DNA of 64,000 nt from Paraburkholderia phytofirmans OLGA172 (GTDB lineage Bacteria > Pseudomonadota > Gammaproteobacteria > Burkholderiales > Burkholderiaceae), in NCBI RefSeq assembly GCF_001634365.1, contig NZ_CP014578.1, positions 992,001 to 1,056,000 on the forward strand. Direction: 5' to 3'. A program made the translations under genes and the position numbers. This document shows positions 5,120 to 59,235 of the stretch, in pieces. How positions within the stretch are numbered: position 1 is the first letter of the stretch; every line of letters starts with the position of its first letter. The notes under the pieces were generated by a model. That model was not told the origin of the DNA. It worked only from the letters and a program-made list of their open reading frames with translations, and ran no database searches.

Positions 5120-6163
5120 TTACTGCTCGGTTTCTTCTTCCGCGCCTTCGTCGCCGTACAAGCTCAAGCGGTTGTAGAGCGTTTTCAGACTCACGCCGAG
5201 CGCTTTGGCGGCGCGCCGCTTGTCGCCGCCGCAATACTTGAGCGTGCCGAGAATGATCTGCTTTTGCGCATCGGCGAGCGGGGTGCCGATCCACACGCTC
5301 ATCGCGTCGCCCTGCGTCACCGGCTTTTTCACGCGCGAGGCGAGATGCGGATGCGGCAACTCGACCGTTTTCTCCGCGAGAATGAACGCGCGATACACCG
5401 CGTTCTTCAACTCGCGCACGTTGCCCGGCCACGACCAGGTCCGCAGGGTTTCGATCGACCGTTTGCTGAAGCTCTTGCTCGTGCTTTCCTGCTGATTCAG
5501 TAAGGCAAGGAAGTGTTGCGCGAGCAGTTCGCGATCGCTCTCGCGCTCGCGCAACGGCGGCGCGCGCAACGGAAAAACCGCGAGCCGGTACATCAGGTCT
5601 TCGCGCAGACCGTTTTCTTTCACCGCTACCGCGGGGTCGCGATTGGTCGCCGCGATCACGCGCACGTCGCCGCTAATCAGTTCGTTGCCGCCGACGCGAA
5701 AAAACGTGCCGGTCTCGAGCGCGCGCAAGAGTTTGACCTGGCGCACCGGCGCCATTTCAGTGATTTCGTCGAGGAACAGCGTGCCGCCGTTCGCATGTTC
5801 GAAGTAGCCGACGCGGCCTTGAACCGCACCGGTGAAGCTGCCTTTTTCGTGGCCGAACAATTCGGCTTCGATGAGTTCGTCGGGAATCGCGCCGCAGTTC
5901 ACGGCGACAAACGGGGCGTCCTTGCGGCTGCTTTGATCGTGGATCGTGCGGGCAATCAGTTCCTTGCCGGTGCCGGATTCGCCGATGATCAGCGCGGTCG
6001 CGTCGGTGCCGGCGACGCGTTCGATCTGTTCGTACAGATCGAGCATCACCGGCGACGAGCCATACAGCAGCCCATACGATTTCAGTCCCGCGACGCCGTC
6101 CGCGACGCGCTGCTTCGTCTGTGCGGCGGAGACGGCGGCCGGGTCCAGATCGATTGACGCCAT
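5120..6163 (-). CDS. sigma-54-dependent transcriptional activator lacking a receiver domain
   Basis: This 347-residue bacterial enhancer-binding protein consists of a short N-terminus (about 30 residues), an AAA+ domain and a Fis-type helix-turn-helix. Walker A GESGTGKE is at 61-68, the sigma-54-contacting loop GSFTGA at 108-113, and LFLDEI Walker B follows. The C-terminal DNA-binding helix reads SLKTLYNRL, identical to that of the second activator at 7499-8899. I chose the ATG at 6163 because the upstream extension has no domain and is poorly conserved in character. With no receiver or sensor domain, activity is probably set by abundance or by a partner, as in PspF. A sigma-54 site at 6386 faces away from it toward the DUF883 operon. 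Confidence 0.9.
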   Translation of the reverse strand: MASIDLDPAAVSAAQTKQRVADGVAGLKSYGLLYGSSPVMLDLYEQIERVAGTDATALIIGESGTGKELIARTIHDQSSRKDAPFVAVNCGAIPDELIEAELFGHEKGSFTGAVQGRVGYFEHANGGTLFLDEITEMAPVRQVKLLRALETGTFFRVGGNELISGDVRVIAATNRDPAVAVKENGLREDLMYRLAVFPLRAPPLRERESDRELLAQHFLALLNQQESTSKSFSKRSIETLRTWSWPGNVRELKNAVYRAFILAEKTVELPHPHLASRVKKPVTQGDAMSVWIGTPLADAQKQIILGTLKYCGGDKRRAAKALGVSLKTLYNRLSLYGDEGAEEETEQ

Positions 6164-6385
6164 AAACGGGGTCCTGTGCAAATGGGGTTCGGTGTTGCGA
6201 CGCGCAGAGTTTGAAGCCTTTGGCGCAAGACGGACCAGTGCGGTCACTATCTCACAAAAATTCGATTTAACCACTTTGACACCGCTTCCGGCAATTCATG
6301 TGACGGTCGGCGAAATAGGCCGCCGCACGCCTGGCCGAAAGTGCCCGAGCCCGTGGCGGTGCCGAATGAGACTGGCAAATATATC

Positions 6386-6400
6386 GGGCACGGCGTTTGC
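6386..6400 (+). promoter_or_regulatory. candidate sigma-54 (-24/-12) promoter of DUF883 operon
   Basis: GGGCACGGCGTTTGC has GG and GC separated by exactly ten bases and matches TGGCACG-N4-TTGC at all but the first base. It predicts a start about 130 bases before the ATG at 6542, and it lies in the divergent region next to a sigma-54 activator gene. Confidence 0.6.
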
Positions 6401-6541
6401 GGAGCGGTTCCGACATGAATGTGCTCTTGAGCGACGCTGTTCAAAGCGCGCCGGCGGCGGATGCGGTTCTCCGATCGTTCGCCATGCGCCGGAAACAAGG
6501 CGCAATCAAGATGCCAACGCCGAACTCAGATACAGGAGTGA

Positions 6542-6862
6542 ATGATGACTGACACCAGGCAACAGCTCGCACTCGGCGGGCAGAAGATGGTCGAGGATCT
6601 GAGAGTGCTGCTGACGGACTCCGAAGAGATGCTGCGGCTTGCCGCCAACGTGCCGGGCGAGGGCGTCGATGCGCTGCGCGAGCGCTTGGGGGCGCATGTC
6701 CAAACGCTGCAATCCGCGCTCGGCGATGCACAACAGAACGCGCAGCGCCGCTATCGGGCCGCGACCGTCAATACCGAACGCTATGTGCGGCACAACCCGT
6801 GGCGCTCGATCGGCATTGCCGCGGGCGCCGGCTTCCTGCTTGGCGTTCTCAGCGCGCGCTAA
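6542..6862 (+). CDS. DUF883/ElaB-YqjD-like membrane-anchored protein
   Basis: This 106-residue protein has an amphipathic, charged helical N-terminal part and a single C-terminal transmembrane helix containing the family's Gly/Ala-rich PWRSIGIAAGAGFLLGVLSA. ElaB/YqjD/YgaM proteins in enterics are stationary-phase, inner-membrane-anchored ribosome-binding proteins, and by homology this one may tether or quiet ribosomes under stress. An AGGAG site precedes the start; two adjacent ATGs leave one residue of ambiguity. It is the first gene of a short unit with the next ORF and sits behind a good sigma-54 site, which fits stress- or starvation-induced expression. Confidence 0.85.
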   Translation: MMTDTRQQLALGGQKMVEDLRVLLTDSEEMLRLAANVPGEGVDALRERLGAHVQTLQSALGDAQQNAQRRYRAATVNTERYVRHNPWRSIGIAAGAGFLLGVLSAR

Positions 6863-6910
6863 CGCGCAGTGTGCGACGCCGATCCGCTTGACGATAACAA
6901 GGAGTTCACG

Positions 6911-7189
6911 ATGGGACGACCCAAAATTGGCATCTTCGGCGCGCTGATGGCTCTCGGCGGCTTTCTGGCCGTGCGCCACGTGCAACGAAACCGTGCCGCG
7001 CAGGCTCCGGCGGCGCGTGAATTGAGCCGCTGGGAAGGCGAGGGCGGCACGGTGATGGCGCCGGCTACGCCGTCCGGCGGCGTGACCGCGGCGAGTGCTG
7101 GCCCGTCTGCGCCAGACATCGCACATGGTGCAAATGGCTCGGCGCAACCAAACGGCGAAGGCGACGCATGGCCGTTTCCGCGTAGCTGA
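6911..7189 (+). CDS. small membrane protein of unknown function
   Basis: This 92-residue protein starts 48 bases after the DUF883 gene, with AAGGAG well placed before the ATG. The N-terminus has one short hydrophobic segment (GIFGALMALGGFLAV). The rest is a polar tail rich in Ala, Gly, Pro and Ser that is probably disordered. It likely belongs to the same sigma-54-controlled transcript. I do not recognise a named family; small 'GRPKIG...' proteins following DUF883 genes occur in related bacteria, but that is recollection, not something shown here. Confidence 0.65.
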   Translation: MGRPKIGIFGALMALGGFLAVRHVQRNRAAQAPAARELSRWEGEGGTVMAPATPSGGVTAASAGPSAPDIAHGANGSAQPNGEGDAWPFPRS

Positions 7190-7259
7190 GGGCTCAATGG
7201 TGACCTTGCGTGCGCCGCTGCGCCGGCGTGCCGCTTCGAGAAGCGGCGCCTGGCGTCCC

Positions 7260-7290
7260 TTGCAAGTTTATCTCGATAAAGCCGTATAAT
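7260..7290 (+). promoter_or_regulatory. possible sigma-70-type promoter upstream of NtrC-like regulator
   Basis: A perfect TATAAT (7285-7290) lies 19 bases after TTGCAA (7260-7265), about 200 bases before the response-regulator start. The spacer is longer than the ideal 17. The rest of the 7190-7498 gap shows no ORF. Confidence 0.4.
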
Positions 7291-7498
7291 AGGCAAATAG
7301 ACAACAATGTCGCGCAATTACGGGGAATTTTGCCGTTGATTGTTGCGATATTGAATCAAGTCAGGCGCTCGGCGCTGCCGTGGAACGTTAGCGTGTGCTC
7401 ACGTCAGGGCGCGCGCGACGCATCGGTAAGCCGCCGGCGGGCAGTTCAGCATGCGCTTTGCATGTCCCCCATTCACGCTTTCGGGCTTTCGAGACGCG

Positions 7499-8899
7499 AT
7501 GCCACACGTACTGATTGTCGATGACGATGCCGGTACCCGCGAGGCGCTTTCCGCCATCATCGGGGAAGACGGTCTGACGACCGCCACTGCGGGCGATTTG
7601 CGCGAAGCGCGCATTCAACTGGTCCGGCAGATGCCGGATGTCGTCTTTACCGACCTGAAGCTGCCCGACGGCAGTGGAGTCGATCTGTTTGAAGATCTCG
7701 ATCCGCGCTCCGGCGTGGAGGTGATTGTGATTACTGGCCACGCCACGGTGGAGTCGGCGGTCAACGCGCTGAAGATGGGCGCCACCGACTACCTGGTGAA
7801 GCCGATCAACATGCAGCGCGTGAAGGCGATCCTGTCGCGCTTGCCGCGCGCCGGCGACCTGAAGGCGGAAATCGGCACCTTGCGCGGCGAGTTGCGCCGC
7901 ATGGGCCGCTTCGGTTTGATGCTCGGCAATTCACCGGCCATGCAGGAGGTCTACGACCAGATCGGCCGCGTCGCACCGACGGCCGCCTCGGTCATGCTGA
8001 TGGGCGAGTCGGGCACCGGCAAGGAAGTGGCCGCACAGACGCTGCATCAGCTCAGCTTGCGCCGCAAGCACGCGTTTCTCGCGGTGAACTGCGGCGCGAT
8101 CTCGCCGAACCTGATCGAATCGGAAATGTTCGGCCACGAGCGTGGCTCGTTCACCGGCGCGGACCGCCAGCACAAAGGCTATTTCGAACGCGCGAACGGC
8201 GGCACCCTGTTCCTCGACGAAATCACCGAAATGCCGATCGAGTTGCAGGTGAAACTGCTGCGCGTGCTGGAAACCGGCATGTTCATGCGGGTTGGCACGA
8301 CCCGGGAAATCGAAACGGACGTGCGCCTGATTGCGGCGACCAATCGCGATCCTGAGCAGGCGGTACTGGAAGGCAAGTTGCGGCTCGACCTGTACCACCG
8401 CCTGAACGTATTTCCGATCAGCCTGCCGCCGCTGCGCGAGCGGGGTAAGGACGTCGAGTTGCTCGCGCAGGCGTTCCTCGACGAGCTCAACGAGCGTCAC
8501 AGCACGAAGAAGCATTTCCCGCCTGCAGTGAAGGACATGTTGATGTCATATCCGTGGCCGGGTAATGTGCGCGAGCTGAAGAACTATGTGCAGCGTGCGC
8601 ACATCATGTCGGGTGCGGATTCGGATAGCACGGCAGCGGTGCCGCTGCAGATCACGTTGTCGAAGCCTGCCGCCGGCACGGCGATTACGATTCCGTTTGG
8701 CACCTCGCTTGCCGAAGCGGATCGGCAGTTGATTCTGGCTACGCTCGAGCAATGTGGCGGTGTGAAGACGCGGGCTGCTGAGATTCTTGGGATTAGTTTG
8801 AAGACGCTTTATAACCGTCTTGTTGAGTATGGCAATGATGCGCGCGATGAGGGTGATGTTGCTGATGAGTCGCGGGCTTTGAGGGGAGCGGATGTTTGA
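7499..8899 (+). CDS. NtrC-family sigma-54 response regulator (REC-AAA+-Fis HTH)
   Basis: This 466-residue activator has a receiver domain at 1-115 with the acidic pair DDD near residue 8, the phosphoacceptor Asp52 (VVFTDLKLPD), Thr79 and Lys101. The AAA+ domain (about 140-370) has Walker A GESGTGKE (169-176) and GSFTGA (216-221). The Fis-type HTH contains SLKTLYNRL, the same recognition helix as in the receiver-less activator at 5120-6163. It should drive sigma-54 promoters after phosphorylation by a histidine kinase, but no kinase gene is adjacent, so it is an orphan regulator. The ATG at 7499 gives the canonical receiver N-terminus MPHVLIVDDD. Confidence 0.93.
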   Translation: MPHVLIVDDDAGTREALSAIIGEDGLTTATAGDLREARIQLVRQMPDVVFTDLKLPDGSGVDLFEDLDPRSGVEVIVITGHATVESAVNALKMGATDYLVKPINMQRVKAILSRLPRAGDLKAEIGTLRGELRRMGRFGLMLGNSPAMQEVYDQIGRVAPTAASVMLMGESGTGKEVAAQTLHQLSLRRKHAFLAVNCGAISPNLIESEMFGHERGSFTGADRQHKGYFERANGGTLFLDEITEMPIELQVKLLRVLETGMFMRVGTTREIETDVRLIAATNRDPEQAVLEGKLRLDLYHRLNVFPISLPPLRERGKDVELLAQAFLDELNERHSTKKHFPPAVKDMLMSYPWPGNVRELKNYVQRAHIMSGADSDSTAAVPLQITLSKPAAGTAITIPFGTSLAEADRQLILATLEQCGGVKTRAAEILGISLKTLYNRLVEYGNDARDEGDVADESRALRGADV

Positions 8900-8965
8900 G
8901 GTTAGGCGGTTTTTTTGCCTTTGGCGGCGCTTGTTGGCTGTATGTCTGCGGCGCTGGCCTTCATT

Positions 8966-8981
8966 CGGCATAGGCCTTGCT
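8966..8981 (+). promoter_or_regulatory. candidate sigma-54 promoter of Pro-rich ORF
   Basis: CGGCATAGGCCTTGCT has GG-N10-GC spacing and matches GGCA-N6-TTGC. The predicted start is around 8992, about 26 bases before the ATG at 9018. Confidence 0.45.
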
Positions 8982-9017
8982 GTGTTCCAAAGGAATGCAA
9001 AATCGAGGATAACCAAC

Positions 9018-9308
9018 ATGCCGGAATACGCCGCCGCTCCCGCACTTCCCCTCCCAAAGCTCGCTCACCGCCCCGAGCCAATCGAACCGCCATCGCCATC
9101 GCCATCGCCGGATCCTGGCGAGCCCGACACGATTCCAGGTCCCAGTCCGACTCCAGATCCGATCGAACCCGTTGCGCCGCCAATCGGCGATCCGCCACCC
9201 CAGCCCACACAAACGCCACAAGCCAGGCGGCATCTGTCGTCGCAAGCGCCACCTATGCCACAAGCCAATCAGCGTCCGCCGTGGCGAGCGTCAGTCGTGC
9301 AACTCTGA
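9018..9308 (+). CDS. small proline-rich hypothetical protein
   Basis: This 96-residue ORF is built on Pro-X-Pro and Pro-Ser-Pro runs (for example EPPSPSPSPDPGEPD), followed by a polar, Gln/Pro-rich tail. It has no signal peptide or membrane span and should be intrinsically disordered. I chose the ATG at 9018 over an upstream in-frame option because a good sigma-54 site ends only about 38 bases before it and the upstream extension has Cys/Trp-rich, non-protein-like composition. The low-complexity sequence means that coding status is uncertain; its place between a sigma-54 activator and otsA, each with matching promoter sites, supports it. Confidence 0.45.
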   Translation: MPEYAAAPALPLPKLAHRPEPIEPPSPSPSPDPGEPDTIPGPSPTPDPIEPVAPPIGDPPPQPTQTPQARRHLSSQAPPMPQANQRPPWRASVVQL

Positions 9309-9458
9309 CATGCTCCGTGCGCTGCATCACATCAGGCGCAGCGAATTTATGTACTTGTTACAAAGCTGGCGCATCTTTTACCGGCAATTTACCGTCGTGA
9401 CCCCTACACTGAATTGATGCCGTCGAGATGGCGGCGGGCTTCCCCGGAGGCATCGATC

Positions 9459-9671
9459 ATGAGACATCCAGCACTGCGACGTTCCGCACGCCACTCCAAG
9501 CGCGATTCCCGGCCTGCCAGCAGCAAGAGCGCCCCGGCAGAGTCGCCGGACCCGGCGGCGCAGAACCGCGTCGCGCCCGATGCGCCCCCAGACGGCGAGC
9601 ACAACCAGGGCGGCGTGCGTCGGGAAGGTCTGGAGTACCAGCGCGATCTCGGCTCGGAACAGGACGCGTGA
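9459..9671 (+). CDS. small basic/acidic hypothetical protein
   Basis: This 70-residue ORF is preceded by a strong GGAGG (9446-9450), which selects the ATG at 9459. The N-terminal third is Arg/Lys/Ser-rich and the C-terminal part is acidic (EGLEYQRDLGSEQDA), an arrangement typical of small disordered proteins of unknown role. It has no membrane segment or motif. It lies 210 bases upstream of otsA and may be co-induced with it. Confidence 0.55.
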   Translation: MRHPALRRSARHSKRDSRPASSKSAPAESPDPAAQNRVAPDAPPDGEHNQGGVRREGLEYQRDLGSEQDA

Positions 9672-9808
9672 GCCCTCTGACGGCCGGTAAGACGGGTCCC
9701 GGTTTCGTCATACAAAGCAGAAAAAATTTCTTCGCGGTGCTTCCATATCGCGTGTTTCTGCTCGTTCGTCACATTTGCATACATTTTTATTTCCGGCATC
9801 TCAAAAAA

Positions 9809-9824
9809 CGGCACGCGATTTGCA
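9809..9824 (+). promoter_or_regulatory. candidate sigma-54 promoter of otsA
   Basis: CGGCACGCGATTTGCA matches the sigma-54 consensus TGGCACG-N4-TTGCA at every specified base except the first, with GG (9810-9811) and GC (9822-9823) ten bases apart. It would start transcription about 45 bases before the otsA ATG. Confidence 0.6.
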
Positions 9825-9881
9825 TGCACCTCTTTGGCACACATCCGTATGCAACGAAACAACTGACTAGGTGGAGCACCA

Positions 9882-11312
9882 ATGAGCAGACTGATCGTGG
9901 TATCGAATCGTGTGGCGCCGACCCAGGAAGGCCGCCCCGCAGCAGGGGGCCTCGCGATCGGCGTGCTGGACGCATTGAAGGAAACCGGCGGAGTCTGGTT
10001 CGGCTGGAGCGGTGAAACCGTGAGCGAGCCGTCCGCTCCGGTGATCGAAAAGCAGGGCAATGTGACGTACGCGACGGTGGGCCTTACCAAGCGCGACTAT
10101 GACCAGTACTATCGCGGCTTTTCGAACGCGACACTGTGGCCGACATTCCATTATCGCAACGACCTGTCGCGCTACGACCGGCAGGAATACGCGGGCTATC
10201 AGCGCGTCAACGCGACGCTCGCCAAACAGCTCAAGGAGCTGCTCAAACCCGATGACATCATCTGGGTGCACGACTATCACCTGCTGCCGTTCGCGCGCTG
10301 TCTGCGCGAGCTCGGCGTGAAGAATCCGATCGGCTTTTTCCTGCATATCCCGTTTCCGGTTTCGGAAGTACTCCGCACGATTCCGCCGCACGAGGAATTG
10401 GTCAAGGCGATGTGCAGCTACGACGTGGTCGGTTTCCAGACCGAGGCGGACCGCCAGTCGTTCGTCGACTTTATCGAGCGCGGCTTGCACGGCACCTCGA
10501 GCGAAGACGGCATGGTGCACGCCTACAACCGTTTCCTTAAAGTGGCGGCGTACCCGATCGGTATCTATCCGGACGCAATCGCCAAGGCTGCCGAACAGTT
10601 CACCGACCGCAAGCCGGTGCGCAGCCTGCGTGACGGCATGCGCGGGCGCAAGCTGATCATGAGCGTCGACCGGCTCGATTATTCGAAGGGTCTGGTGGAG
10701 CGCTTCCAGGCTTTCGAACGTCTGCTGCTGAATGCCCCGGGTTGGCACGGGCGCGTATCGCTGGTGCAGATCGCGCCGCCGACGCGCGCGGATGTGCAGA
10801 CGTATCAGCGCATTCGTCAGACGCTGGAGGGCGAAGCCGGCCGCATCAACGGCCGTTTCGCGCAACTCGACTGGACGCCGATCCAGTACCTGAACCGCAA
10901 GTACGAGCGCAATCTGCTGATGGCGCTGTTCCGTCAATCGCAGGTCGGCTATGTGACGCCGCTGCGCGATGGCATGAACCTCGTCGCGAAGGAGTACGTT
11001 GCATCGCAGGATCCGGCCGATCCGGGCGTACTCGTGTTGTCGCAATTTGCCGGTGCGGCCGAGCAATTACCAGGGGCGCTCGTCGTCAATCCCTTCGATC
11101 TGTCGCAGATGGCCGAGGCGCTGGAGCGCGCACTGTCGATGCCGCTCGCCGAGCGTCAAGCGCGCCATGCGGACATGATGGCGCCGATGCGCGAGAACAA
11201 TCTGTCGGTCTGGCGCGATACGTTCCTGGGCGATCTGCGCAACGTCGCGACCGCCTCGTCGGTGACGGCCAAAGCGGTAAAGCTCGCTGACGTGACGGCA
11301 TCGTCGTCGTAG
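9882..11312 (+). CDS. otsA: trehalose-6-phosphate synthase (GT20)
   Basis: This 476-residue cytoplasmic enzyme transfers glucose from UDP-glucose (or another NDP-glucose) to glucose-6-phosphate to make trehalose-6-phosphate, the first step of osmoprotectant trehalose synthesis. Family landmarks are the N-terminal RLIVVSNR, a GG loop (PAAGGLAIGV), WVHDYHLL, the SVDRLDYSKGL nucleotide-sugar site, and PLRDGMNLVAKE near the C-terminus. The length is normal for OtsA. The partner phosphatase OtsB is not in the window. A sigma-54-like site lies just upstream, an unusual arrangement because otsA in enterics is RpoS-controlled. Confidence 0.97.
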   Translation: MSRLIVVSNRVAPTQEGRPAAGGLAIGVLDALKETGGVWFGWSGETVSEPSAPVIEKQGNVTYATVGLTKRDYDQYYRGFSNATLWPTFHYRNDLSRYDRQEYAGYQRVNATLAKQLKELLKPDDIIWVHDYHLLPFARCLRELGVKNPIGFFLHIPFPVSEVLRTIPPHEELVKAMCSYDVVGFQTEADRQSFVDFIERGLHGTSSEDGMVHAYNRFLKVAAYPIGIYPDAIAKAAEQFTDRKPVRSLRDGMRGRKLIMSVDRLDYSKGLVERFQAFERLLLNAPGWHGRVSLVQIAPPTRADVQTYQRIRQTLEGEAGRINGRFAQLDWTPIQYLNRKYERNLLMALFRQSQVGYVTPLRDGMNLVAKEYVASQDPADPGVLVLSQFAGAAEQLPGALVVNPFDLSQMAEALERALSMPLAERQARHADMMAPMRENNLSVWRDTFLGDLRNVATASSVTAKAVKLADVTASSS

Positions 11313-11357
11313 CCGCATCAGCGGTGGCGCGGTTTCTTCAAGAACCGCGCCTGCTGG

Positions 11358-12770
11358 TCACGTCGAACTGTTTATCACGCGCAACGTGCTGACCACGGCG
11401 GCGACCGCTGAAAAGCACGCGGCCACATACAGCACGATAGTCGGCCCATGCTGCGGCGCGATGCCGAAGATCAGCGCGACCAGCGCGGCGCCGAGCGTCT
11501 GTCCGGTCAGGCGCGCGGTGCCGAGCATGCCGCTCGCGCCGCCGCTGCGCTCACGCGGCGCGGCGGACAACATGGTCCGGTTGTTCGGCGACTGGAAGAT
11601 CCCGAAGCCCGCACCGCACAGCGCCATGCGCCATGCGATCTGCATGGGCTCGGGATGCGCGCCGAGGGTGGCGAGCAGCAGCAGGCCCACGGTCATCGCA
11701 GCGAGTCCGACACCGCCCAGCCAGCCTGACGACACCTTGTCCGACAGCACGCCGGCAATCGGCGCGGCGATGATGATCACCGCCGGCCACGGCGTTATCA
11801 GCAAACCGGTCTCTACCTGCGAGAAACCGAGCGCGTCCTGCAACAGAAACGGCAACGACACGAAGGCCAGCATCTGCGCGCAGAACGAACAGACCGAGGT
11901 GCCGATCGAGAGGGCGAACACTGGAATCCGCAGCAAATCGATCGGCAGCAAGGGCGCGGGCTGGGTCAATTGACGGCGCACGAAGAAGTAGCCGATCACA
12001 ACGGCGCCGAGTGCTTCTGCGGCGACCCAGCCGAAGCGCTCGCCATGACCGAGGCCGTCGACGGCGAAGATCAGCAGGCCGAACACGAACGCGTTCATTA
12101 CCGCGCTCAGATAGTCGTACGGAGAGTCGTGGCCGGGATTCATCGGCAGTGCCTTGAAGCCGCCGACAATCGCCGCGATCCCGATCGGCACATTGATCGC
12201 GAACAGCCACGGCCACGAGGCTACGGCGAGTACGCCGGAGGCGACCGTCGGCCCGAGCGCGGATGACACCGCAACGACCATCGCGTTGATTGCAACGCCG
12301 CGCCCAAGCTGCGTGGGCGGATAGATCATGCGCACGAGCGCGGTGTTCACGCTCATGATGCCCGCCGCGCCGAAGCCCTGAACGACGCGGGCGAGCGCGA
12401 GCGTCGGCAGCGAGGTGGACAACGCGCAACCGAACGACGCCACGGTGAACAGGATCAGCCCGGCCAGATAGATGCGCCGGTAGCCGATGCGATCGCCGAG
12501 CGACGCGAGCGGCAGCAGTGAAATGGTGATGGCGAGCTGGTACGCGTTGACGACCCAGATCGAGCCGGCTGCGCTCGCATGCAGATTGCGCGCGATGGTC
12601 GGCAGCGCCACGTTGGCGATCGCGCTGTCGAGCACCGCCAGCGTGAGGGCGAGCGCGATAACCAGCATCGCCCAGTAGCGTTGCGGAATCGGCAGGCCTT
12701 GTTCGGTGCTGTCTGCGAGCGGCGTGCCGGCGGCGAGTGGGGTAGCCGAGGGGGCACCGGCCGGCATCGA
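11358..12770 (-). CDS. MFS transporter, DHA2 (14-TM) drug:H+ antiporter type
   Basis: This roughly 470-residue inner-membrane protein has the DHA2-type first helix LDSAIANVALPTIA, a motif-A-like loop GDRIGYRRIYLAG after the second helix, and some 14 hydrophobic spans. Such proteins export drugs, dyes or biocides in exchange for protons. I placed the start at the ATG at 12770, which follows AAGGACAG; an in-frame ATG at 12800 is also possible, and longer extensions are not protein-like. The gene is convergent with otsA and runs alone on its strand. The substrate cannot be inferred. Confidence 0.88.
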   Translation of the reverse strand, partial: SMPAGAPSATPLAAGTPLADSTEQGLPIPQRYWAMLVIALALTLAVLDSAIANVALPTIARNLHASAAGSIWVVNAYQLAITISLLPLASLGDRIGYRRIYLAGLILFTVASFGCALSTSLPTLALARVVQGFGAAGIMSVNTALVRMIYPPTQLGRGVAINAMVVAVSSALGPTVASGVLAVASWPWLFAINVPIGIAAIVGGFKALPMNPGHDSPYDYLSAVMNAFVFGLLIFAVDGLGHGERFGWVAAEALGAVVIGYFFVRRQLTQPAPLLPIDLLRIPVFALSIGTSVCSFCAQMLAFVSLPFLLQDALGFSQVETGLLITPWPAVIIIAAPIAGVLSDKVSSGWLGGVGLAAMTVGLLLLATLGAHPEPMQIAWRMALCGAGFGIFQSPNNRTMLSAAPRERSGGASGMLGTARLTGQTLGAALVALIFGIAPQHGPTIVLYVAACFSAVAAVVSTLRVINSST

Positions 12771-12945
12771 ACTGTCCTTGCGCAATGGTTGTGCGTGCAT
12801 CGTTCTGTTGGATTCGGAGTGGGGCGGTTCATCGACCCTGCGACCTGCGATGAACCACGCGCGCTGCGTGCCGCCCTGGAAGACAAGACGGCACGCAGCG
12901 ACGATGCCGGCGCTGCGACAGCGCAACGGCATCGTGTCTCATGCG

Positions 12946-13449
12946 TTATTTGAGCTCGTACAGGCCGGTGTGGGTGGTGGAGTCGAGCTCGTTAAGATGC
13001 GTCATGAAACGCGCGACCGCATTGGTGGTGTCCGCGTTGATCGGCAGGTGCGGCACCTTCAGCGCATGCAGGCGGAAGATGTAGCGATGCGTCCTGTCGC
13101 CACGCGGGGGCGCTGCGCCGCCGAAGCCGACCGTGCCGTAGTCGTTGCGCACCTGCAGCGCGCCTGGCGGCAGCAGCGAGCCATCGGCCTTGCCGGCGTT
13201 GCGCGGCAGTGAGCGGGCGTCAGCCGGAATGTTGACGACAACCCAGTGCCAGAAGCCGCTGCCGGTGGGCGCGTCGGGATCGTGAACGGTGAGCGCGAAG
13301 CTTTGGGTGTCGGCCGGTGGCGCATCCCATTGCAATGAGGGCGAGATATTCTCGCCGTCTACACCGAAGGCCTTGTCGTGGTATTCGTGGGCTTTCGGCA
13401 TAAAGCCATTGGTGGGGAAATCGTCGGACCAGAGACGGAAATCAGCCAT
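12946..13449 (-). CDS. YbhB/YbcL-family Raf-kinase-inhibitor-like (PEBP) protein
   Basis: This 167-residue protein is of the phosphatidylethanolamine-binding-protein fold. The family motifs are seen: SPSLQWDAPP, the ligand-site DPDAP, the HWVVVNIP strand and the GGAAPPRGDRTHRY segment. Bacterial YbhB/YbcL proteins have no settled biochemical role; they are cytoplasmic or periplasmic, and this one has no signal peptide. It ends 176 bases upstream of the MFS gene start on the same strand and may share a transcript with it. Confidence 0.9.
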   Translation of the reverse strand: MADFRLWSDDFPTNGFMPKAHEYHDKAFGVDGENISPSLQWDAPPADTQSFALTVHDPDAPTGSGFWHWVVVNIPADARSLPRNAGKADGSLLPPGALQVRNDYGTVGFGGAAPPRGDRTHRYIFRLHALKVPHLPINADTTNAVARFMTHLNELDSTTHTGLYELK

Positions 13450-13621
13450 CGTGTGCCTCCCTTCGTGAGTGGTTCTGGGATGGTCGGGGCGTGTTTTTTT
13501 GCTGCCGGCTTACCGCCCGATTTCTGCAAGTTCGGCTCGCAAAAATGCCCCGAGCTAGCCAATCGAGTGTATCACCAGCCGCTTGCGGATTCGTTCCAAT
13601 CGGGTGGGCTACAAGCAGCTT

Positions 13622-14068
13622 TCAGCCGCGCTCCTCGAAGCGCGGCGCGTCGCTCTTCAACCACTCGACGAGCCGTTGCAACACGCCCTCGATATCGCGA
13701 TTCGCGCCACGCAAAGCGCATTCCCATACCACCCCGACGCGCCAGCCGCTGGCGAGCAACGCCGCCTGAACTTTGTCGTCGTTGCTGCGATTTCGGCCGA
13801 TCTTGTCGCGCCAGAACTCCGGCCGCGTTTGCGGCCATTTGAAAAGATGACAGTCGTGACCGTGCCAGAAGCAGCCGTGCACCAGTACGACAGCGCGGTA
13901 GCGCGGCAGCACGATGTCCGGGCGGCCCGGCAGGTCGCGTGCGTCCAGACGGAAGCGAAAACCCCGGCCATGCAGCAGGCTGCGGATCAGAATTTCGGGT
14001 TTCGTGTTGCGGCCGCGAATGCCGGACATCATCCGGCTGCGCGTTGCGCTGTCGACGATATCGACCAT
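13622..14068 (-). CDS. vsr: very short patch repair endonuclease Vsr
   Basis: This 148-residue mismatch endonuclease nicks at T:G mismatches produced by deamination of 5-methylcytosine within the partner methylase's site. Visible landmarks are the N-terminal SRMMSGIRGRNTKPE, the catalytic Asp in LPGRPDIVLP, and the zinc/aromatic motif HGCFWHGHDC. It lies 30 bases downstream of the cytosine methylase gene on the same strand, the classic Dcm-Vsr pairing. No restriction endonuclease is next to them. Confidence 0.95.
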   Translation of the reverse strand: MVDIVDSATRSRMMSGIRGRNTKPEILIRSLLHGRGFRFRLDARDLPGRPDIVLPRYRAVVLVHGCFWHGHDCHLFKWPQTRPEFWRDKIGRNRSNDDKVQAALLASGWRVGVVWECALRGANRDIEGVLQRLVEWLKSDAPRFEERG

Positions 14069-14098
14069 CGCTAGCGCCTGGGTAGGGGAACGGGCCGC

Positions 14099-15382
14099 TC
14101 AGGAATAGAGCGAAAGGGCTTGCTTCGAACCATTGTGCGTTTCCTTGGCGAGCAGGGTTTGCACGTGCGGCAGCATGATGCGCGCCATTTCCCGCATCAC
14201 CGGCATGACGACGCTGTTGCCGAATTGCCGGTAAGCCTGCGTGTCGCTGACCGGAATCCTGAAGGTATCGGGAAAGCCCATCAGCCGGGCGCATTCGCGC
14301 GGCGTGAGGCGTCGCGGCCGCAACTGTTCGCCCTGATAGACCAGAATTTCCGAGCCGTCCTTGTGATAACGCGCGGAGAGTGTGCGCGTGACGCTGTCGG
14401 GATAAGCCATGCCGAAGCCAAAGCCGTTCCCCGCTGCACGATGCTTCGCCGCGTAGTTTTGCAGATAGGTCCAGAGATTCGGCGTGAGCGTGTACTTTGC
14501 TTGCACGCGTTTGCCGGCATGGTCGAAGAAGCGATCGTGGTCCCACGGCAGCACCGGTTCGCTGCCGTCGGTGCGATGCAGGATCGAGCCGAGGCGCGGG
14601 CCGCTTTCCGGCAGACGCAGATCGTCCCAGGTGAACGACGTCTTGCCGCGAAAGCCGACAATGATGATGCGTTCCCGGTGCTGTGGCGTGAAATGCTGGC
14701 CGTCGACCACGCGGTAGTGCACTTCGTAGCCGAGTTCGTCGCGCAGGGTCTGCAGGATCACGTCGAAGGTACGGCCTTTATCGTGCGAAAGCAGATTCTT
14801 CACGTTCTCCAGCAGGAACGCGGCGGGGCGCTTTGCCGCAATGATCCTGGCGACGTCGAAAAACAGCGTGCCTTGCGTTGTGCACTCGAATCCGTGCGGG
14901 CGGCCCAGCGCGTTCTTCTTGCTGACGCCGGCGATCGAGAACGGCTGGCACGGAAAGCCGCCGAGCAGCACATCGTGACTCGGCACCGCTTCGGCGGGAA
15001 ACGAAACGATGTCGCCGATCAGCGTGTGTTCGCCGTCGGCCGGGTAGTTCTCGCGATAGGTTTTGGTGGAGAAATCGTTCCACTCGCTCGTGAAGACACA
15101 GTCGCCGCCGTGCGCCTCGAAACCCATGCGAATGCCCCCGATGCCGGCAAACAGATCGATAAAGCGGAACTGGGCGCCGCCCGTAGCCGCGCCGGCCTTC
15201 GTCCGACCGCCGCTGTGCAGCAGATCGCGCAAGGCCGGTTCGAGCATGGACGGACACGGCGTTTCGCCTTTTTCCCAGCGGCGCACCGTCTTGATGTCCT
15301 TACCGACGTGCGCTGCGATTTCGCGTTGGGTGAAGCGGGTGCGCGCCTGTCTGAGCAGGTCGAGCGGTGGGGCGTGGGTCAC
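14099..15382 (-). CDS. dcm: DNA (cytosine-5) methyltransferase with N-terminal HTH
   Basis: This roughly 427-residue C5 methylase has motif [15 protein letters not shown], motif [11 protein letters not shown] with the catalytic Cys, motif [11 protein letters not shown], motif VIII QHRERI, and the C-terminal FGNSVV motif X. The first 45 residues contain a helix-turn-helix-like segment ([20 protein letters not shown]), as in Dcm-type orphan enzymes. I chose the GTG at 15382 because it follows AAGGACCTCT; there is no better ATG, and the upstream frame is not protein-like. It is transcribed with vsr. The recognition sequence cannot be read from the protein, although Dcm-like CCWGG is the obvious guess. 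Confidence 0.92.
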
Positions 15383-15566
15383 AGAGGTCCTTGCTGGGGA
15401 ATTTTTGCGGACATTATGACCTAAGGTCGTCCCATTTTTCCTATTTCCGCGGACAAGGGGCGGAATATTTCCGGCAAGCAAAGCCTGTTCTCGCCTAAAC
15501 GCGGCTGTCACGGTTGGACGTGCAGGCTTGTCGTGTGACGCGAATTCCCCGCGTTGCGACGTGTTC

Positions 15567-15596
15567 AGGCCGCGACAGGGTTCGCGGCCTTTTTTT
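15567..15596 (+). terminator. orphan plus-strand Rho-independent terminator
   Basis: GGCCGCG / CGCGGCC stem followed by seven T residues on the plus strand. Both flanking genes are on the minus strand, so no known plus-strand gene ends here. It could close a small RNA transcribed from the dcm upstream region. Confidence 0.7.
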
Positions 15597-15654
15597 AGCG
15601 GATACGAGTCGGACTGGCCGGCGTGGAAGGCCGGCCATCAAGGCTTGCAGCGTG

Positions 15655-15981
15655 TCAGAAATGGTCGTCGGAGGTCGCGGCCTGTAGCGGCTGGGGCAGC
15701 GCGGCGTCTGCCGGGGGCAGCTCATCCAGAACTGGCTGGGGTGCGGCTTCGAACTGGTCGAGCTGCAGCAGGAGGCTGTCGACTCCGCACAATTGCGCGT
15801 GGGACAGATTGCCGGTGTCGAGCAACTGGTGCAGACGCTTGCGCCAGTAGGCGGTCGGCAGAATCGGTCCGCCCAGGTCGCCGTGTAAAGACGGCCGCAT
15901 CACACGCCCGATATGCGCGATGTCCTGGTCGATCAGCGCCGCCTGGGATGACCCCGTCTGCGTAATGGGTGTGCGTTCCAT
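15655..15981 (-). CDS. conserved-type hypothetical protein (108 aa)
   Basis: This 108-residue soluble protein has no signal peptide or membrane span. The core (residues 20-80) is alpha-helical in character, with RVMRPSLHGDLGGP followed by YWRKRLHQLLD. The C-terminal 30 residues are Pro/Ala-rich. GGAGGAGC lies a few bases before the ATG. No domain is recognised. It is divergent from csbD, which has a sigma-54-type site in the shared upstream region. Confidence 0.65.
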   Translation of the reverse strand: MERTPITQTGSSQAALIDQDIAHIGRVMRPSLHGDLGGPILPTAYWRKRLHQLLDTGNLSHAQLCGVDSLLLQLDQFEAAPQPVLDELPPADAALPQPLQAATSDDHF

Positions 15982-16087
15982 AGCTCCTCCATGGCGCCTT
16001 TACGGCAGGCTGCGGAGGGACTTTAGGGCTTTTTGAAATATTTTTCGCGACCGGCCTGACAGGGCGAAACCGGCTGGCGGCGGGCGC

Positions 16088-16103
16088 GGGCACACCCGTT
16101 GCT
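16088..16103 (+). promoter_or_regulatory. candidate sigma-54 promoter of csbD-like gene
   Basis: GGGCACACCCGTTGCT matches TGGCAC-N5-TTGCT at all but the first base, with GG-N10-GC spacing. The predicted start is near 16114, about 45 bases before the csbD ATG. Confidence 0.55.
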
Positions 16104-16157
16104 GAACAGGGATACTGGCGTAATGTCGCGCCGGCATTCCAGAAATCGGAGCTGAAC

Positions 16158-16349
16158 ATGAACAAGGACCAGGTAAAAGGCGTGGGCGAGCAGGTCAAGG
16201 GCAAGGTCAACGAAGCCGTCGGCAAGGCCACCAACAACCCCGGTAAGGAGCTCAAGGGCGACCTCCAGCAAGCCGCCGGCAAAGTGCAAAAGGCTTATGG
16301 CGACGCTAAGGAAGACGCCAAGGACAATGCAAAGCGCAACGCGCCGTAA
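16158..16349 (+). CDS. CsbD-family stress protein
   Basis: This 63-residue, highly charged protein has the CsbD/YjbJ pattern: MNKDQVKGVGEQVKGKVNEA, then GKATNNPGKELKGDLQQAAGK. The family is among the most abundant general-stress proteins in many bacteria and is predicted to be natively helical or disordered; its molecular role is unknown. It has its own terminator and, unusually, a sigma-54-like site upstream rather than an obvious general-stress promoter. Confidence 0.9.
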   Translation: MNKDQVKGVGEQVKGKVNEAVGKATNNPGKELKGDLQQAAGKVQKAYGDAKEDAKDNAKRNAP

Positions 16350-58179: not shown

Positions 58180-59010
58180 TTAGCGCTTCGTTGGTGGCGT
58201 ATCGGGGGCGTCCGCAGCGAGTCCGAGACGGCGGCGACGTGCTTCGGCAGCGTCGATCTGCGCCTGCACGTCGGCGCTGACGCGTTCCGTATTTTGCGGG
58301 CCCTGGCCCTTGGCGGCCAGTTCTTCTTTCTTCTGGCGCGCACGCTCTAGCGCGGCCTGGATGATCGCGCGTTTTTTCGCTTCGGCGTCGTCCGTTGCGG
58401 GCGCGGAGGGCGTTGCCGCGGCACCGGTTTCCATTGCTTGAGCGGGCGGGCTGCTGACCGCTCGCCGCGCTGCAGCACGCGCTTCGGCCGCTTCGCGTTC
58501 GCGTGCGAGGCGGGCTTCACGCCGGTTGTGACGCTCGCGCGCGGCGTCGGCCTGGCCCTGGCTCCATGCGCCCCAGCCGGTTGCGTCGCCGGTGACCGGC
58601 GGCATCGCGATGCAATCGACCGGGCAGGGGGGCACGCAAAGGTCGCAACCGGTACAGAGCTCGGCGATTACCGTATGCATCTGTTTCGGTGCGCCAACTA
58701 TTGCATCGACCGGACAGGCCTGCATGCACAACGTGCAGCCGATGCAAACTTGTTCGTCGATAACCGCCAGCGGACGCGGCCGTTCGACACCGTTGGCGGA
58801 ATTGAGCGAAATCACCGGCTTGCCGAGCAGTGCGGCGAGGCGCGCGACGCCTTCGGCGCCACCCGGCGGGCACTGGTTGTAGTTGGCTTCGCCGTTGGCG
58901 ACAGCCTCGGCATACGGACGGCACGCCGGATAGCCGCACTTGGTGCATTGCGTTTGGGGCAGCAGATCCTCGATGCGGTCTGCGAGTGTTTTGGAGTCGA
59001 TCACGGTCAC
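58180..59010 (-). CDS. rsxB: electron transport complex protein RsxB-like ferredoxin
   Basis: This 276-residue protein has an N-terminal Fe-S domain ([15 protein letters not shown]), two ferredoxin-type [4Fe-4S] sites ([16 protein letters not shown] and [16 protein letters not shown]) and a long Ala/Arg/Glu-rich charged tail (165-276). It lacks the membrane anchor of gammaproteobacterial RsxB, and no other rsx/rnf genes are adjacent, as is usual in Burkholderia. It probably delivers electrons, perhaps to the Nth cluster or SoxR, but this is inference. It is the first gene of the nth operon. Confidence 0.92.
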
Positions 59011-59235
59011 AACATTGGTGCTTGCCTTGCGGCCGCGTAGCTTGAACTAAATAGCACATTATCGCCGATTTCCCCAATTGCCATCCGCAATCCATGTGCC
59101 ATAATCGAAGCGCTTTTTCGAAAGACCGCCATAAGGGTGTTCCCCCAACCAGCCCGTTCAGTGCTGTCGGTGCAAGGCCCGAGGAGAGGCCGGCGGCGCG
59201 ATCCGGATAACGCGGCTCACGAAGACGATGCCACC

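Follow-up and report, generated by a model that had tools for sequence, protein, structure and literature searches.

Predicted sigma-54 promoters around otsA in Paraburkholderia phytofirmans and a probable sigma-54-dependent stress regulon of the Burkholderiaceae

Can sigma-54 serve the genes of general stress protection? The usual associations of sigma-54 are with nitrogen, flagella and virulence; those of general stress are with RpoS, SigB or EcfG. The question is raised by a locus around otsA, the gene of trehalose-6-phosphate synthase, in Paraburkholderia phytofirmans OLGA172, where four sigma-54-like promoter sequences lie together with the genes of two sigma-54 activators, here called E1 and E2. 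The locus is part of a window of 64,000 nucleotides (contig NZ_CP014578.1, positions 992,001 to 1,056,000), the whole stretch of DNA that was analysed, and positions are counted from its first letter. An earlier note on this window had proposed that the two activators run the locus as a self-contained, RpoN-driven stress module. Our comparative analyses support an RpoN-driven module linked to the two activators, since the promoters were conserved, control otsA genes were free of strict sites and the activator motifs were kept; the module did not prove to be self-contained. We give a probability of roughly 0.72 to the reading in which this locus forms the regulatory core of a Burkholderiaceae stress regulon dependent on sigma-54, with activation by E1 and E2 and an amplifying loop through a second sigma-54 gene, rpoN2.

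The four GGCA-N6-TTGC sites described earlier were all found to be exact, intergenic matches on the plus strand (6387-6400, 8967-8980, 9810-9823 and 16089-16102), each ahead of an ATG. The corresponding predicted promoters are those of the DUF883 operon (GGGCACGGCGTTTGCG, 6386-6401, 155 bp from the start codon, resting on a pattern match and a comparison of best sense scores), a Pro-rich open reading frame (ORF; CGGCATAGGCCTTGCT, 8966-8981, 51 bp), otsA (CGGCACGCGATTTGCA, 9809-9824, 72 bp) and csbD (GGGCACACCCGTTGCT, 16088-16103, 69 bp). All four also satisfied the tighter GGCA[CT][AG]-N4-TTGC, or GGCAYR-N4-TTGC (the strict pattern), with GG and GC 10 bp apart; the RpoN box given for Paraburkholderia phymatum in the available text of its source is GGCACG-N4-TTGC (PMC5979394). 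The window contained 14 copies of GGCA-N6-TTGC, compared with 4.3 +/- 2.0 after shuffling, and none of 100 shuffles reached 14. The strict pattern was found 132 times in the 8.57 Mb genome, compared with 75 times for the backward pattern. From this density, 0.15 strict sites would be expected in the 9.7 kb region that holds four (Poisson P ~2e-5, for a region picked post hoc). Sites were also scored with a sigma-54 matrix hand-set from the sigma-54 consensus, the scores of which rank sites and are not probabilities. The earlier remark that no such site had turned up in the other upstream regions inspected by eye is not borne out: the same window has a strong sigma-54-like match (TGGCACATGGATTGC, 59087-59101, minus strand), located 77 bp upstream of the GTG of an iron-sulfur (RnfB-like) ORF (58180-59010).

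Comparison with orthologous loci, a check that the earlier note had proposed, showed that the otsA, Pro-rich ORF and csbD sites are kept and that the DUF883 site is looser. After removal of three loci whose E2 genes were identical in their first 900 bp, 47 non-redundant loci with E2 and otsA were left, the window included; genera were counted with named loci assigned by name. A strict sense site was located within 300 bp upstream of otsA in 46 of the 47 loci, from seven genera, and these upstream regions contained neither antisense sites (0/47) nor backward-pattern sites (0/47). The search pattern itself imposes GGCA and TTGC, and the search was free to fail at any locus; it failed at one, L182 of an eighth genus, where CGGCACGAACCTTGCG is located at -337, ahead of an intervening Pro-rich ORF. 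The N4 spacer took 31 different forms; strict sites kept around a freely varying spacer constitute a phylogenetic footprint of a -24/-12 promoter. In light of these counts, it would be scarcely credible that these are chance matches ahead of genes served by sigma-70 or RpoS, an explanation that is refuted in practice even though RpoS is encoded in the genome and a second conserved block lies upstream of otsA. This block (TCACATTTNCATACA, 9769-9783 in the window), about 41 bp ahead of the -24 element, was present in 18 of the 47 loci and absent from shuffled sequences, and may represent either a site for a protein or another promoter.

The other three promoters were conserved to different degrees. 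The Pro-rich ORF carried a strict site in all nine loci with the ORF, and csbD in six of the seven loci that keep csbD at this position, the seventh scoring 12.7, one mismatch off. In the gap upstream of DUF883, the best score was at least 11 on the sense strand in 40 of 49 loci and on the antisense strand in 6 of 49, and at least 12.9 in 27 and 1, respectively; the site reads TGGCACG-N4-CTGC in many loci.

The otsA promoter was found to track linkage to E1 and E2. Among 69 OtsA homologues in other loci, no strict site was observed and one locus (L052) passed the loose score. Of these loci, 23 were checked for E1 and E2, many of the other 46 being from other bacterial families; none of the 23 contained a full E1 and E2, with weak partial matches (35-49%) in L051 and L059. 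Six otsA paralogues, two in this genome and four in two genomes of genus g10, also had no strict site (best score 9.8), and neither a site nor, within 4.9 kb upstream, E1 or E2 was found at a Burkholderia otsA of 78% identity (L040). As a further control, seven neighbouring genes of these loci were examined, and 2 of their 269 upstream regions carried a site.

The presence of two locally encoded sigma-54 activators, as claimed earlier, was confirmed by Pfam. E1 (5120-6163, minus strand, 347 aa) contains an AAA+ domain and a Fis-type helix-turn-helix (HTH), with only about 33 residues N-terminal to the AAA+ domain and no N-terminal sensing domain, an architecture that we take to be PspF/HrpS-like; activators of the HrpR/HrpS or PspF type are likewise without a sensing domain. 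E2 (7499-8899, plus strand, 466 aa) is an NtrC-type response regulator with REC, AAA+ and Fis HTH domains, and HTH_8 was detected in the activators. The loop GSFTGA or GAFTGA, Walker A and the receiver lysine were kept in E2 in 69 of 69 cases. In E1, the loop GSFTGA or GGFTGA was recognized in 56 of 61 rows (the remaining five were misread by the search expression) and Walker A in 60 of 61. Walker B was present as GGTLFLDE in 62 of 69 E2 and 49 of 61 E1 sequences. In the window, E1 and E2 have almost the same recognition helix (LGVSLKTLYNRL and LGISLKTLYNRL). E1 fell below the cut-off of all 25 models listed of 30 in NCBIfam, with 265 bits against a cut-off of 444 for PspF, and E2 below that of all 25 listed of 115. 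An assignment of E2 to NtrC proper was rejected, with 385.7 bits against 558.6 for the NtrC equivalog. E1 is conserved in an orientation divergent to DUF883 and E2, and a conserved block upstream of it (TTGCCG-N18-TTAAAT in the window, 6250-6295, minus strand), found in 42 of 49 E1-E2 gaps, is probably a sigma-70-type promoter for E1.

In several genera, gene context further connects the locus with rpoN2. The sigma-54 DNA-binding domain was searched in 150 genomes of the family, and a second rpoN was often located on the same contig as E1 and E2. Within 69 non-redundant E2-centred stretches, usually 14 to 21 kb in length, rpoN2 was included in 33 (g10, 10/10; g25, 7/7; g24, 5/5; g14, g17 and g16, 3/3 each; g7, 1/1; g18, 1/3), at a start-to-start distance from E2 of 1.6 to 11.6 kb. 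We read 53 rpoN2 genes, comprising those of the linked loci, those of 20 rpoN2-centred loci (one duplicate) and that of the window genome, and 50 of them carried a sigma-54 site upstream. Among 31 rpoN1 genes used as a control, which were the best-scoring ones, mostly from g3, g11 and g24, and not a random sample, one had a site scoring at least 12.9 (L410, at -222). Antisense matches occurred at 17 of the 53 rpoN2 genes, as would be expected wherever a divergent BON gene carries a site of its own. For the BON gene closest by sequence, a sense site was present in 26 of 33 cases and an antisense site in 1 of 33. The arrangement is most compact in L163, where E1, orf92, E2, otsA, rpoN2 and BON form a single run with sites ahead of otsA, rpoN2 and BON. 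The window genome encodes two rpoN genes plus rpoS; its RpoN2 has all three sigma-54 domains, and rpoN2, BON, DUF4142 and PRC genes are grouped on contig 2, each with a site. Comparison across genomes thus establishes the predicted promoters, including that of rpoN2, together with their linkage and conservation.

An rpoN2 promoter has been described in Ralstonia solanacearum, where, according to the accessible text, rpoN2 (with the site TGGCACAGCCTTTGCA) is not expressed in complete medium, is switched on in minimal medium and stays off when rpoN1 is mutated; the authors observed no phenotype and wrote that its role "remains enigmatic" (PMC4371752). The similar rpoN2 promoter and the second-replicon location suggest that g24 is Ralstonia.

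Sites elsewhere in the genome indicate that the regulon extends beyond the window. The catalogue contained 131 distinct strict sites, of which 49 were intergenic-like by heuristic gene calls that count some true intergenic sites as coding. One strict site was located ahead of a DUF883_C and Transgly_assoc gene pair, another ahead of a PRC-barrel gene in a six-site cluster (C1:1776-1787 kb), and others ahead of three more PRC genes and of one gene each for BON, DUF4142, DUF1328 and DUF3309; two preceded PII genes of nitrogen control. Four of 11 PRC genes had a strict site within 450 bp (P ~5e-8 if sites were random). The stress-protein families among the candidate targets are thus OtsA, CsbD and DUF883 in the window and PRC, BON, DUF883_C, DUF1328, DUF3309 and DUF4142 elsewhere. 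It is very improbable, given these sites and the fact that rpoN2 and its BON neighbour are on a different contig, that the regulon is closed and confined to the window locus, as the word self-contained had implied. The concentration of four sites in 9.7 kb would suit such a closed regulon, which is contradicted by the genome-wide sites unless other activators alone serve those.

The six-site cluster (L233, C1:1768500-1788000) spans 10 kb and also includes holin-like, ParB-like and BrkB-like genes, the last identified by eye, and it adjoins a long sensor-like ORF and a response regulator. A second csbD with a site (TGGCACAGTCCATGCT) is located directly ahead of an E2 paralogue of 49% identity (L234, ~7181-9146); csbD matches adjoin E2-like genes also in G040, G020 and G017.

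We propose that E1 would be present at a basal level, probably from its sigma-70-like promoter, and that under osmotic or starvation stress E2 would be phosphorylated by a kinase. E2 with E1, perhaps jointly, would then remodel sigma-54 RNA polymerase at the -24/-12 promoters of the DUF883 operon, the Pro-rich ORF, otsA and, in the lineage of the window, csbD. In several sister genera the block also holds rpoN2, frequently paired with a divergently oriented BON/OsmY-like gene that has the same type of promoter, and an amplifying loop may operate there, in which RpoN1 and the activators would induce rpoN2 and RpoN2 would provide extra sigma-54 for the stress genes. In the genus of the window, rpoN2 and its BON neighbour are located elsewhere, and the further sites may spread the regulon across the genome. 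A bolder version, which we advance tentatively and hold at somewhat less than even odds, is that RpoN2 is a dedicated general stress sigma factor, induced through RpoN1 and E1/E2 and self-amplifying, that drives trehalose synthesis and BON/OsmY, PRC-barrel, DUF883 and CsbD genes; the window would then carry half of an ancestral block that was split between two replicons in Paraburkholderia. In Escherichia coli these families belong largely to RpoS.

Several observations weigh against the proposed regulon. rpoN2 was absent from 36 of the 69 E2-centred stretches, including 19 of 19 from the genus of the window, and also those of g3 (five), g12 (four), g8 (three), g11 (two) and g5 (one). Three rpoN2 genes had no good site (L177, L180 and L181). 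An obligatory role of rpoN2 was rejected, since G085 (L154) keeps the otsA site with a single rpoN and rpoN2 is therefore not required. We also rejected the idea that all members of the stress families carry sites: in this genome a strict site was found for 1 of 30 BON domain matches, many of which are inner domains of one protein, and for 1 of 3 DUF883 matches (that of the window itself), and CsbD showed 2 clear sites and 1 weak site among 7 cases. So few BON and DUF883 members with a site imply that the regulon takes in a subset of these families. The strain's rpoS may control the same genes, and no kinase gene was identified beside E2.

Finally, neither dyad counts nor a palindrome Gibbs search revealed a shared enhancer motif (upstream activating sequence, UAS). 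Upstream of the otsA and DUF883 promoters, the coding sequence of orf70 and the E1 block swamped the dyad counts. The Gibbs search on 19 promoters of this genome yielded 9.39 bits at width 14 (7.9-8.86 in four shuffles), 9.30 at width 16 (8.4-9.24) and 9.58 at width 18 (8.88-9.35), and because the gap to the shuffles is small, no UAS is claimed. This lack of an enhancer motif connecting E1 and E2 with the four promoters would agree with true sigma-54 promoters that are activated by NtrC or another enhancer-binding protein, with E1 and E2 controlling something else nearby, and the E2 paralogue beside another csbD suggests that related activators may share targets. We consider this unlikely, because the otsA promoter tracks E1/E2 linkage as described above. 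NtrC in particular is an unlikely activator at otsA, since NtrC boxes were unenriched upstream of it (2/47 against 4.8 in shuffles), yet an NtrC-like box is present at one of the two PII promoters of the genome. NifA boxes were tried as well and showed no enrichment (1/47 against 1.0 in shuffles).

Further published data come from Caballeronia (Burkholderia) insecticola. In the available text on this symbiont, ACDS08420, one of its three otsA genes, shows a 12-fold increase in symbiotic cells and the other two do not, otsA deletion leads to osmotic sensitivity, trehalose genes are higher in stationary phase, and no difference in growth was seen in rich and minimal medium (PMC10100943). In the genome G081, the otsA copies are located at 0.82, 1.39 and 1.94 Mb, an order that matches the locus tags, and the copy at 0.82 Mb is linked to E1/E2 and has the sigma-54 site; this gene order suggests that the symbiosis-induced otsA is the E1/E2-linked one. 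The stationary-phase increase and the induction of Ralstonia rpoN2 in minimal medium (PMC4371752) would favour a locus that responds to nutrient limitation or minimal medium, with stress protection as a by-product. Such a starvation response is doubtful, since the target families (trehalose synthesis, BON, CsbD, DUF883 and PRC-barrel) are protective, not assimilatory, and the mutant phenotype is osmotic, with no difference in growth in rich and minimal medium (PMC10100943). The sigma-54-dependent stress regulon, with osmotic or starvation stress as its probable signal, is the reading that we prefer.

The DUF883 gene (6542-6862, plus strand) encodes an ElaB/YqjD-like stress protein (PF05957 and PF19029, with the ElaB model below cut-off) and is followed at its 3' side by the conserved gene orf92 (6911-7189, plus strand). 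The small Pro-rich protein (9018-9308, plus strand) and orf70, a small conserved protein ahead of otsA (9459-9671, plus strand), belong, like orf92, to no Pfam or NCBIfam family. otsA (9882-11312, plus strand; PF00982, TIGR02400 above cut-off) is one of three copies in the genome, and its product is 98% identical to OtsA of Paraburkholderia rhynchosiae. The csbD gene (16158-16349, plus strand; PF05532) encodes a CsbD-family (YjbJ-like) stress protein and was found at this position in seven of the loci read; a Vsr endonuclease gene and a Dcm-type methyltransferase gene (13622-15409) lie between it and the otsA part. The order E1 - (DUF883) - orf92 - E2 - orf70 - otsA is repeated in Paraburkholderia, Caballeronia and further genera, with single losses of small genes, and otsA is gone from the stretch in two g17 loci. 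Distant genera also have sites close to E1/E2-like pairs, ahead of BON, short-chain dehydrogenase and thiamine-enzyme genes and of a sub-cut-off DUF883_C-like gene; several of these sites fall in open frames and were given no weight.

Among published systems, the sigma-54 regulons of P. phymatum and Burkholderia cenocepacia share the motif GGCACG-N4-TTGC and the sigma family with the window locus, and differ in that the papers centre on nitrogen, with trehalose and CsbD not appearing in the accessible main text (PMC5979394, PMC5748707, PMC5491218). BerB (BerB/berA system) of B. cenocepacia, likened here by description and not by sequence, is also a sigma-54 activator near its target and was tested with promoter mutants; according to the available text, it differs as a c-di-GMP effector controlling exopolysaccharide (PMC5552954). 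The Ralstonia rpoN2 is alike in being a second sigma-54 gene with its own -24/-12 promoter, dependent on RpoN1 and non-redundant with rpoN1, and differs in that the available text does not connect it with stress genes or with a pair of activators (PMC4371752). Among the literature matches listed, in which subscription journals are thinly covered, no title or abstract opening described a sigma-54 general stress regulon for the Burkholderiaceae. Sigma-54 regulons with enhancer-binding activators are already known; what is surprising here is the stress targets, plus a self-promoted second sigma-54 linked to them in several genera. If true, the proposal would provide a large bacterial family with a separate, ATP-gated route to stress protection. 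It would offer a testable hypothesis of a stress role for rpoN2, in print non-redundant but enigmatic, and could account for the response of a single otsA copy out of three in the insect symbiont.

The closest parallel in target genes is the general stress regulon of RpoS in E. coli, which includes otsBA, osmY, elaB/yqjD and yjbJ and thereby covers families similar to those of the window locus. The predicted regulon differs from it in relying on sigma-54 and ATP-dependent activators, not on sigma-S, in a genome that encodes both factors.

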